A stretch of 32,903 nt of DNA, taken from NCBI GenBank assembly GCA_029567195.1, contig JAKQLJ010000031.1, forward strand, positions 1 through 32,903, in the 5' to 3' direction. Below the pieces are notes generated by a model, which saw nothing but the letters and a program-made list of their open reading frames with translations, was not told the DNA's origin and made no database searches. Below, one piece after another: positions 14,920 to 21,897 of the stretch. The position numbers and the translations under genes are program-made. Source of the DNA: a bacterium. GTDB lineage: Bacteria > Patescibacteriota > Minisyncoccia > Moranbacterales > UBA2206. Within the stretch, counting starts at the first letter, position 1. Every line of letters starts with the position of its first letter.

Positions 14920-14977
14920 AATTGTATAATAAGAAAAAGGGGTGCCAGCTATGGCGCTCTTAGCTTTATTTAACCCT

Positions 14978-16552
14978 ATGGCAGAAACATTATATCGAAA
15001 ATACAGGCCGAAGAATTTTTCGGAAATTATCGGACAAACGCATATCGTCCGCACTCTTGGTAATGCCGTTTCTTCCGATCGCATCGGCCAGGCTTATCTT
15101 TTCACCGGTCCCCGAGGAACGGGAAAAACTTCCATTGCCCGGATTCTGGCTAAGACCGTCAACTGTCCGGATCAAAAGAAATCAATTCCTTGCGAAAAAT
15201 GCCCGTCATGTAAAACGATAAATGAAGGAAGATCTCTCGATATCATAGAAATTGATGCCGCTTCCAATACCGGTGTGGATAATATTCGGGAACTAAAGGA
15301 AACAGTCGCCCTTCCGCCAACATCCTTGAAATTCAAAGTATACATCATAGACGAAGTGCATATGCTTTCTACCGGCGCTTTTAATGCCCTCTTGAAAACC
15401 TTGGAGGAACCGCCGACTCACGTAATTTTTATTCTGGCCACCACTGAAATTCACAAAGTTCCCGATACCATCATTTCCCGTTGCCAGCGCTTTGATTTCA
15501 CAAGACTTCCTCTCCAAAATATTATCGAAAAACTTTCCCTGATTGCCAAAGAAGAAAAGGTGAAAATAGGAAAGGAGGCTCTGGAAATGATCGCTTTGGC
15601 ATCGGAAGGTGGAATGCGCGATGCCGAATCGCTTTTTTCTCAAATTATAACGCTGGAAGACAAAAACATTACCACCAAAGAAGTGGAAGAAATTTTAGGT
15701 TCCACCGACAGAAAAGTTGTCCACGAGATAGCCGAAATGATTTTGGAAAATGATTCAACCGGCGCTATTTCCAAAGTAAACGGCCTTTTGGATGACGGGT
15801 ATGACCTGGCTGTTTTTAACAAGTCCCTTGTCAATTATCTTAGGCAAGTGATGCTTCTTAAGATAAACGAAAAATTGAGCCGCCATTTTTCTTATGAAAT
15901 GACCAAGGAACAACTGGAAAAAACCCTAAAATTAGTTCAAAAAGCGGAGTTGTTCCGAATTATTGATATCATTAATCTCTTTCTTAAAGCGCAAACAAAA
16001 ATTTCTTCTTTTATTCTTCCTCAGTTGCCGCTAGAAATTGCTATCATAAAAGCAACAAACACTTTTCCCGTGCATTTGGATAATAAAATAGAAATCAATA
16101 ATCAGAAGCCTATAAGTATAAATCAAAAAATAGAAATAAAAGAGCGGGAAACGGAAAAAGAAACAGCTGACGCTCCGAAAAAAAATGAAAGCGTGGATAT
16201 GGACACTATCAGAGCCAATTGGAATAAGCTTCTGGTTGAAATTAGGCCATTTAATCATTCTCTAAATGCCCTCCTTTTTAATTGCCAGGTTTTGAAAGTA
16301 AAAGGCAATGAAATAACTCTGGGCACACCTTATGAATTTTATCGGGAAAGATTGGCGGAAAACAGCAACAGATTGACAATCGAAGAGGTGTTTAGTAAAA
16401 TTTTAGGATTGAAAGTGACGATAACAACAGTCATCGATAAGAGTTTAGCCAAGAAAACAACGCCGGAAGAAATTGTAGAAGAAAAAAATTCTACCCAGGA
16501 TCCCCTGCTCGATTCAGCTTTGGAAATTATGGGCGGGAAAGTGGTGGAATAA
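14978..16552 (+). CDS. dnaX: DNA polymerase III subunit gamma/tau
   Basis: MAETLYRKYRPKNFSEIIGQTHIVRTL, GPRGTGKTSIARILAK, CPSCKTI zinc motif, IDEVHMLSTGAFNALLKTLEEPP; start trimmed to 14978. Confidence 0.95.
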   Translation: MAETLYRKYRPKNFSEIIGQTHIVRTLGNAVSSDRIGQAYLFTGPRGTGKTSIARILAKTVNCPDQKKSIPCEKCPSCKTINEGRSLDIIEIDAASNTGVDNIRELKETVALPPTSLKFKVYIIDEVHMLSTGAFNALLKTLEEPPTHVIFILATTEIHKVPDTIISRCQRFDFTRLPLQNIIEKLSLIAKEEKVKIGKEALEMIALASEGGMRDAESLFSQIITLEDKNITTKEVEEILGSTDRKVVHEIAEMILENDSTGAISKVNGLLDDGYDLAVFNKSLVNYLRQVMLLKINEKLSRHFSYEMTKEQLEKTLKLVQKAELFRIIDIINLFLKAQTKISSFILPQLPLEIAIIKATNTFPVHLDNKIEINNQKPISINQKIEIKERETEKETADAPKKNESVDMDTIRANWNKLLVEIRPFNHSLNALLFNCQVLKVKGNEITLGTPYEFYRERLAENSNRLTIEEVFSKILGLKVTITTVIDKSLAKKTTPEEIVEEKNSTQDPLLDSALEIMGGKVVE

Positions 16553-16555
16553 TGA

Positions 16556-16577
16556 TGGGGTGTAGCCAAGCGGTAAG
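16556..16577 (+). repeat. 22-bp exact duplicate of tRNA-Gln 5' end (truncated tRNA)
   Basis: TGGGGTGTAGCCAAGCGGTAAG, identical to 16885-16906. Confidence 0.9.
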
Positions 16578-16624
16578 TCGCCTCTTCGGCGACCCGCCGA
16601 TGAGGCGGGGCAAAAACAAAAAAT

Positions 16625-16894
16625 ATGTATTACGTATATGTATTAGAAAGCTTAAAAAACAAACGTATATATACAGGCTTCACAAATAATTTAAAAAGGA
16701 GATTTATAGAGCATAACACTCGTAAAGGCGGTCATTATTCAAGCAGAAATGCTCCATTTAAATTATTATTCTATGAAGCTTTTATAAACAAGAGAGATGC
16801 TGAAAAATCTGAAAAGTTTTTTAAGACTGGATATGGTCGAGAAGTTTTAAAGGATAAGTTGAAATTTTATTTTAAAAATAGTATTGGGGTGTAG
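16625..16894 (+). CDS. GIY-YIG nuclease domain protein (89 aa, URI-type)
   Basis: MYYVYVLESLKNKRIYTGFTNNLKRRFIEHN...SSRNAPFKLLFYEAFINKRDAEKSEKFFKTGYGREVLK; stop codon lies inside the tRNA-Gln 5' end. Confidence 0.9.
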   Translation: MYYVYVLESLKNKRIYTGFTNNLKRRFIEHNTRKGGHYSSRNAPFKLLFYEAFINKRDAEKSEKFFKTGYGREVLKDKLKFYFKNSIGV

Positions 16895-16956
16895 CCAAGC
16901 GGTAAGGCAGGGGCCTTTGAAGCCCCCATGCGTAGGTTCGAATCCTACCGCCCCAA
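16885..16956 (+). tRNA. tRNA-Gln (anticodon TTG)
   Basis: Acceptor TGGGGTG/CGCCCCA, D-arm GCC..GGC, anticodon arm GGGGC-CTTTGAA-GCCCC, T-arm GTAGG-TTCGAAT-CCTAC; no encoded CCA. Confidence 0.95.
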
Positions 16957-16970
16957 CATTTCAGTATAAG

Positions 16971-21366: not shown

Positions 21367-21404
21367 GAATTTCCTTACTAATTACAAATTAAAAAAATAT
21401 AAAT

Positions 21405-21512
21405 TTACAAAATAAAAAGCGGAATGTAATCCGCAGTTAAAGTAAATAATCTTATAAATAAGATTGATTTCCTCGGCGAGACTTATTTTAGCGCTCGCTG
21501 TCTGCGGAATTT
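21405..21512 (-). promoter_or_regulatory. Ribosomal protein L10 leader with terminator hairpin
   Basis: Minus strand TTCCGCAGACAGCGAGCGC...CTCGCCGAGGAAATC, then GCGGA/TCCGC hairpin with TTTTTATTTT. Confidence 0.7.
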
Positions 21513-21522
21513 CTATATTAAA

Positions 21523-21897
21523 TTATTTTTCTTCCTCTTTCTTTTCTTCCGGCTTTTCAGCGCTTTCTTCCTTTTTCTCTTCTGCTGGCTTTTCCGAAAT
21601 TTCTTTGGCTTCTTCTTTTACCGGCTCTTCTTTTTTAGGCAATTTTACCGATCTTTTTTTATCAGAAATGACATTCTTGGAAACTAGCAAATTATGGACT
21701 GTATCGGAAACTTTCGCCCCTTTTTCCAGCCAATATTTTATTCTTTCTTCCTTCAAAACAGCAACTTTTGAATGAGGATCGTAGGAACCTAAAATTTCCA
21801 CATGCCTTCCTCCCGGTGCCACGGTATGTTCCTGGAGAGTTATCTTAAATTGCGCCTTATTTCTTTTTCCTACTCTTGAAAATCTAATAGTCAGCAT
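21523..21897 (-). CDS. rpsP: 30S ribosomal protein S16 with long K/E-rich C-terminal tail
   Basis: MLTIRFSRVGKRNKAQFKITLQEHTVAPGGRHVEILGSYDPHSK...RIKYWLEKGAKVSDTVHNLL. Confidence 0.95.
   Translation of the reverse strand: MLTIRFSRVGKRNKAQFKITLQEHTVAPGGRHVEILGSYDPHSKVAVLKEERIKYWLEKGAKVSDTVHNLLVSKNVISDKKRSVKLPKKEEPVKEEAKEISEKPAEEKKEESAEKPEEKKEEEK

Follow-up and report, generated by a model that had tools for sequence, protein, structure and literature searches.

Small GIY-YIG nuclease elements recur beside intact tRNA genes in Patescibacteria, together with a broken, hairpin-bearing tRNA copy

The window analysed here is a 32,903-nt stretch of DNA from a Patescibacteria genome (829 kb, 54 contigs). 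Its centre of interest is flanked on the left by dnaX (DNA polymerase III gamma/tau; 14942–16552, + strand, from the list of open reading frames (ORFs)), a conserved neighbour of tRNA-Gln. Three nucleotides past the dnaX stop begins a truncated copy of the tRNA-Gln 5′ end (R1; tRNA nt 1–22, 16556–16577, +), which repeats exactly the start (16885–16906) of an intact tRNA-Gln(TTG) gene (16885–16957, +; ARAGORN, and Rfam RF00005 with 67.8 bits). An exact search found no third copy of this 22-mer (TGGGGTGTAGCCAAGCGGTAAG) in the window, and about 1e-4 such repeats are expected by chance over its whole length. The copies are spaced 329 bp apart and enclose an 89-amino-acid GIY-YIG nuclease ORF (16625–16894, +; ORF list and Pfam PF01541) with a TAG stop codon (16892–16894) inside the tRNA gene—an arrangement that the original prediction had described in each of these respects. 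The stop coincides with tRNA nt 8–10 (U8-A9-G10); a conserved tRNA triplet thus doubles as the stop codon of the nuclease gene.

The tRNA fragment and the ORF are joined by two adjacent GC-rich palindromes (16578–16609), a feature absent from the original prediction. The first hairpin (TCGCCTCTTCGGCGA; 16578–16592, +) interrupts R1 at the 3′ end of the D-loop/first base of the 3′ D-stem, and near-identical hairpins are present at L057, L151 and L154 and beside alaS at L011; the core of the second (CCCGCCGATGAGGCGGG; 16593–16609, +) is approximately the reverse complement of the first. In predicted folds the two hairpin halves pair and the D-stem of the R1 fragment closes around the palindromes, with a folding energy that is only modestly below that of shuffled sequences (z −1.8). 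Directly downstream, GCA (16610–16612, +; tRNA nt 23–25) continues the interrupted tRNA copy as far as the D-stem base. This match is weak alone (3 nt) but fits the family pattern, as 5 to 20 nt of homologous tRNA resume after the hairpin in most relatives. An A-rich spacer (16613–16624, +) precedes the ATG, and comparable short spacers occur at other loci. The exact 22-bp repeat is thus only one part of the structure, as the double hairpin and the tRNA bases that follow it also belong to the element. Elsewhere in the window, a ribosomal protein L10 leader (RF00557, above the gathering score) lies on the − strand at 21404–21525.

The 89-amino-acid protein belongs to the GIY-YIG superfamily (PF01541, E = 2.8e-16, 60 bits), with conserved catalytic residues; Y5, Y16, G18, R26, H30 and E63 are invariant in an alignment of 11 relatives. 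Its nearest solved structures are the UPF0213 proteins BH0048 (1zg2) and EF2693 (1ywl), followed by SLX1, only marginally, and NCBIfam gave no match. Searches of PHROGs, viral contigs and phage records returned no relatives, and a phage origin was rejected on these grounds. Nucleases of the family are 80–95 amino acids long and have no separate DNA-binding domain, unlike the well-studied GIY-YIG homing enzymes.

Comparison with related genomes revealed that dnaX is followed by tRNA-Gln in 29 of 30 family loci, the window's included; the remaining locus runs off a contig end. The original prediction held that tRNA-Gln once sat directly after dnaX and that relatives with an empty site might be found, and six genomes carry one, with 4, 4, 6, 8, 12 and 25 bp between the dnaX stop and tRNA-Gln (L027, L045, L043, L032, L041 and L040, respectively). 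Other relatives have filled intervals. A GIY-YIG unit occupies the interval in the window, L028, L036, L049 and L053, degraded or partial units remain in L037 (G030) and L047, and ORF-less tRNA-like relics with a hairpin replacing the anticodon arm are found in L046 and L050. A further five relatives (L029, L033, L038, L044 and L052) contain a different element of ~740 bp. The variety of occupants indicates that the interval is a repeatedly used insertion site. Given that the ORF lies outside any intron recognized by Rfam and that element-free alleles with 4–25 bp exist, the unit fits a free-standing homing element in its arrangement (an ORF outside introns and inteins, with element-free alleles), whereas site-specific cleavage and biased transfer are inferred. 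As a separate observation, the ~740-bp element encodes a protein of 220–230 amino acids of unknown family (weak HTH_23 match below the cut-off), and its ORF is preceded by a conserved ACTACGGATATAT-like motif in the five relatives.

The same design—a tRNA 5′ copy carrying a hairpin pair at one point, a spacer, a GIY-YIG ORF and an intact, co-oriented tRNA—recurs at other tRNA genes. The source genome alone contains nine GIY-YIG relatives; at L007 the design is repeated at tRNA-Met, where two arms of the broken copy carry hairpins, and degraded copies lie beside tRNA-Pro (L003) and tmRNA (L002). Among 78 family GIY-YIG ORFs, 24 have a tRNA start within −30 to +40 nt of their stop, where about 0.1 would be expected, and for 14 of these 24 the sequence upstream of the ORF scores higher against the adjacent tRNA than against all other isotypes. 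A phylum-wide sample gave a tRNA within −30 to +60 nt for 33 of 96 GIY-YIG ORFs (a few from overlapping regions), all co-oriented and none opposed. At 32 Patescibacteria loci in total, the ORF is clearly preceded by a copy of the tRNA beside it, at tRNAs for Gln, Pro, Ser, Asp, Asn, Tyr, Trp, Thr, Cys, Lys, Val, Leu and Gly. GIY-YIG ORFs, whatever their location, were found in 138 of 240 sampled Patescibacteria genomes. A search for other GIY-YIG ORFs flanked by tRNA 5′ fragments, suggested with the original prediction, thus yielded a common arrangement; the outcome that would have spoken against that prediction, namely relatives with neither empty sites nor any tRNA association, did not materialize.

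The design extends beyond Patescibacteria: Omnitrophota carry it at tRNA-Pro (L277, a perfect copy of nt 1–27) and tRNA-Glu (L293 and L294), and a Flavobacteriaceae metagenome-assembled genome (MAG) has a threefold tandem of exactly 310-bp units (98% identity) at tRNA-Arg, with the intact tRNA at its end (L287). A tandem-type junction is also present at L211, where the end of the ORF meets R1 at the start of a contig, and L151 carries two different elements in series. Next to tmRNA or inside 23S rRNA genes, a small number of sister copies were seen as well. In a Synergistetes MAG, a GIY-YIG ORF is located within the 23S rRNA gene (L290, 2331–2600). Partial copies of other kinds were also seen. 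At a tRNA-Arg(TCT) gene of G000 (L124, 1379–1500), an ORF-less copy of tRNA nt 1–63, 100% identical and with a hairpin at nt 21/22, lies 36 nt upstream of the intact tRNA, and in mirror cases (L127, L134, L079 and L223) hairpin-bearing copies of the tRNA 3′ part lie downstream of the intact tRNA, two of them (L079 and L223) with a GIY-YIG ORF.

Broken copies are ordered as tRNA[1..p], hairpin(s), tRNA[p+1..q], spacer and ATG. The insertion point p was mapped on ARAGORN cloverleaves in 22 mappable cases, leaving out the window given that only three bases resume there. In 18 of the 22 cases it falls within a D, anticodon or T loop or on a loop edge (P about 1e-5, against 35% of junctions in loops and at their edges; the 35% is an estimate, and the counting of edges is a matter of judgement). 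An identical T-loop site (TT^CG^A) is used in L095, L169, L183, L188 and L191, across three isotypes; p lies in the anticodon loop in L060, L157, L211, L229 and L238, and in the D-loop or at its edge in many other loci. Insertions into stems (L077 and L101; Asn) are exceptions. The point q mostly falls inside the 3′ strand of that arm or where this strand ends, with several D-loop cases extending further.

The loop that is used follows the phylogeny of the nuclease. On a tree of 169 sequences (84 columns, with many forks unresolved), the hairpin-bearing arm changes 9 times (15.4 in label shuffles), the tRNA isotype 35 times (42 in shuffles) and tRNA adjacency 28 times (46.9 in shuffles), none of which was reached in 300 shuffles. 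The clade of the window spans Gln(TTG), Gln(CTG) and Pro tRNAs in three bacterial families, with a D-loop insertion wherever the copy is readable and nearly the same hairpin pair (L057, L151 and L154); the hairpin pair therefore moves along with the nuclease lineage. The distribution over arms may also mirror which insertions survive. A stand-alone double hairpin, 94% identical to that of the window, was found directly after the alaS stop at L011 (~1501–1535; G000 C10:71614–71648), followed by a diverged copy of the C-terminal codons of alaS.

We consider it probable that the ~330-bp unit of the window belongs to a large family of minimal homing-type elements, which enter tRNA genes but keep the tRNA intact. 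Its architecture, the empty sites, the recurrence, the loop preference, the lineage-specific arm and hairpin, and the decayed and tandem copies are directly observed, and cleavage, copying by repair and movement are inferred. The recurrent mobile-element architecture is real and its logic is close to that of known homing endonuclease elements. The only gene of a family element is the 80–95-amino-acid GIY-YIG nuclease, and tRNA genes are its home. In the proposed mechanism, the nuclease would cut an element-free tRNA gene at p, the loop that holds the hairpin in R1. The left broken end (flank plus tRNA[1..p]) would match R1 of a donor up to the hairpin, and repair, in which R1 would serve as left arm and the intact tRNA as right arm, would copy the hairpin, the ORF and the tRNA 5′ part before rejoining in the tRNA body, so that the element is installed and the tRNA is whole. 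The hairpin would break the nuclease target within R1, and re-cutting of the intact tRNA followed by repair from R1 could generate tandem arrays. The scattered presence of the elements and their tandem and decayed copies are compatible with biased transfer into element-free alleles, although transfer itself is an inference. Against this reading stand the lack of any cleavage, mobility or expression data and the missing separate DNA-binding domain of these proteins. Moreover, the D-arm of the intact tRNA-Gln in the window is the same as that of the empty site L027; the intact tRNA keeps the presumed target, so self-cutting must be rare or harmless, and it may have left the tandem arrays as a trace. 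Cleavage of its own host would still be expected of a D-arm cutter unless the reaction is inefficient or requires upstream sequence or an extruded structure.

The origin of the two tRNA copies is a second difficulty for simple repair after a cut at p. Such repair predicts a native broken copy and an intact tRNA with an imported 5′ part, whereas four loci look like the reverse. At L188, the R1 acceptor strand reads GGTCCGG and that of the resident tRNA CCAGGGA, resembling its relatives (CCAG/CCGG); the broken copy at L191 matches an acceptor from another bacterial family; at L046, the intact tRNA is identical to that of L048, a near relative without a broken copy, and the broken copy differs; and at L050, the intact tRNA resembles that of the empty relative L027, and again the broken copy differs. 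These comparisons suggest, from sequence alone, that R1 may be the imported copy, and they contradict a purely local target-site duplication at all four loci. The original prediction that an element entered at tRNA-Gln and left the tRNA intact is supported by the empty sites and the recurrence; its further proposal, that the intact tRNA owes its 5′ segment to the element, cannot be read from the window, where the copies are identical, and the four loci point instead to an imported broken copy.

A foreign-looking R1 at these loci raises the possibility that the element carries its own tRNA fragment and inserts at the tRNA 5′ edge. In this alternative, a self-contained unit with R1 (a foreign tRNA 5′ fragment plus hairpins) would be placed precisely at the 5′ edge of a resident tRNA, which stays unaltered, by an unknown structure- or sequence-guided reaction (for example, through single-stranded or circular intermediates). 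We regard it as somewhat unlikely, although it accounts for a foreign-looking R1 beside a native-looking resident at L188, L191, L046 and L050 and for a right boundary that is always near tRNA nt 1, and the junction of ORF end and R1 at the contig start of L211 is compatible with a circle. No recombinase is encoded, however. In 17 of 26 loci the R1 acceptor strand is identical to that of the resident, and in three further loci it still pairs with the 3′ strand of the resident, as local copies would show; identity as such is neutral on which copy is native.

The loop preference of the insertion points can also be read as transposition directed to hairpin loops, in which a structure-specific GIY-YIG nuclease (UPF0213/SLX1-like) would act on extruded hairpins, and tRNA-type and inverted-repeat sister copies alike would move through DNA hairpins. 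This explanation, which we judge unlikely, draws on the solved structures nearest to the protein (UPF0213, with SLX1 marginal), on the inverted repeats around sister ORFs (seen at 41 of 169 loci but in only 0.5% of mismatched flank pairs) and on rRNA-gene insertions in CPR bacteria, which are located at the top or base of stem-loops (PMC11270868). Its weak points are that the structure-specific activity is without measurement, that the hairpins may be regulatory or protective and that a few insertions (L077 and L101) are in a stem. In a further alternative, which is very improbable, replication slippage would have duplicated tRNA genes in tandem, a GIY-YIG gene would have been picked up accidentally and R1 would have decayed to a pseudogene with a hairpin. 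ORF-less partial copies such as that at tRNA-Arg(TCT) in L124 do exist, but slippage would not account for a nuclease at many isotypes in the same orientation and order, a lineage-specific hairpin and arm, or the same design in distant phyla. tRNA genes are the usual targets of both integrase-type islands and group I/II introns, but we can practically rule out a remnant of either in tRNA-Gln, as there is no integrase, only the GIY-YIG ORF lies between the repeats, the 5′ end is the duplicated one, tRNA-Gln is uninterrupted according to ARAGORN and Rfam detected no intron and no other RNA in the interval. Recurrence of the design at different tRNAs in many assemblies led us to reject an assembly artefact.

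The homing reading favoured above has partial precedents. SegB, a free-standing GIY-YIG homing enzyme of T-even phages with its gene between tRNA genes (PMC2988022, PMC13096335), cuts inside tRNA genes at a motif (RAWTSGAAC) that matches the T-arm complement (PMC13096335) and drives tandem amplification of the tRNA–segB segment (PMC2988022, PMC13096335). The window family shares with SegB a small, tRNA-associated GIY-YIG gene outside introns, but differs in a nuclease of only 80–95 amino acids, a broken tRNA 5′ copy with a double hairpin, many isotypes and a location in cellular genomes. For the fungal mitochondrial mORFs (Allomyces atp6; Glomus atp6, atp9, cox2 and nad3), an endonuclease gene inserts in such a way that the target is restored, and a partial, relic copy of the gene end persists on its far side; these are protein genes affected at the 3′ end, with a native relic and a foreign functional end (PMC3630166). 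In the window, too, an endonuclease ORF separates an intact gene from a partial copy of it; the family, however, is found at tRNA genes, usually affects their 5′ end, carries a hairpin within the relic and, at four loci, has a relic that looks foreign. Mitochondrial double-hairpin elements consist of two adjacent short GC-rich stem-loops and are dispersed. In form they resemble the two adjacent palindromes of the window and the one close copy at alaS, but the hairpin pair of the window is tied to a lineage of nucleases and sits within a tRNA arm. Tyrosine-integrase islands also leave the tRNA intact after insertion, and differ in encoding an integrase and in duplicating the 3′ rather than the 5′ tRNA end. 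Finally, GIY-YIG ORFs have been reported in rRNA-gene insertions of CPR bacteria that match neither group I nor group II introns and are thought to lie outside homing; unlike the window family, these are in rRNA genes only, and the accessible part of that report does not describe tRNA copies or hairpins (PMC11270868).

Beyond these precedents, the combination of a tRNA 5′ copy, a double hairpin, a very small GIY-YIG enzyme, loop-specific placement and many isotypes and phyla was not found in the literature searched; coverage of subscription journals was partial, and an earlier description is not excluded. A wider proposal, which we put forward only tentatively and with the balance leaning against it, is that these units form an undescribed, phylum-crossing class of elements. 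Their sole enzyme would be a structure-reading GIY-YIG nuclease of 80–95 amino acids that recognizes hairpin loops of RNA genes (tRNA, tmRNA and rRNA), and each element would insert with its own double hairpin and regenerate its target from a portable partial copy; together with inverted-repeat sisters and ORF-less mini-copies, the class would amount to a transposon-like superfamily. More generally, elements of the kind inferred here would explain why GIY-YIG ORFs are abundant in Patescibacteria, whose reduced genomes would carry a swarm of near-minimal selfish elements that live on tRNA genes yet spare them. With a partial copy of its target on board, a homing element would not need flanking homology and could move between species and between tRNA genes. 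The idea that hairpin loops of tRNA genes are insertion targets becomes testable, and the family offers biochemists a ready-made collection of very small nucleases associated with tRNA genes.

The sister GIY-YIG ORFs enclosed by terminal inverted repeats (score ≥ 12, the score that 0.5% of mismatched flank pairs reach) are not beside tRNAs; these 41 loci include L061, L063, L064, L070, L087, L090, L099, L105, L117, L120 and L123. With repeats such as TTCACCCTATTAAATAA...TTAATAGGGTGAA and TTCATCCCCCACCAC...GTGGTGGGGGATGAA, they look like tiny insertion sequences. Comparison of L090 with L087 revealed an ORF-less insertion of ~45 nt with the same inverted repeat (CTGCCCTATTAAAT...ATTTAACAGGGTG) in an AbrB-like gene of G016—a MITE-like mini-copy—and the same gene in G023 is without the insertion.
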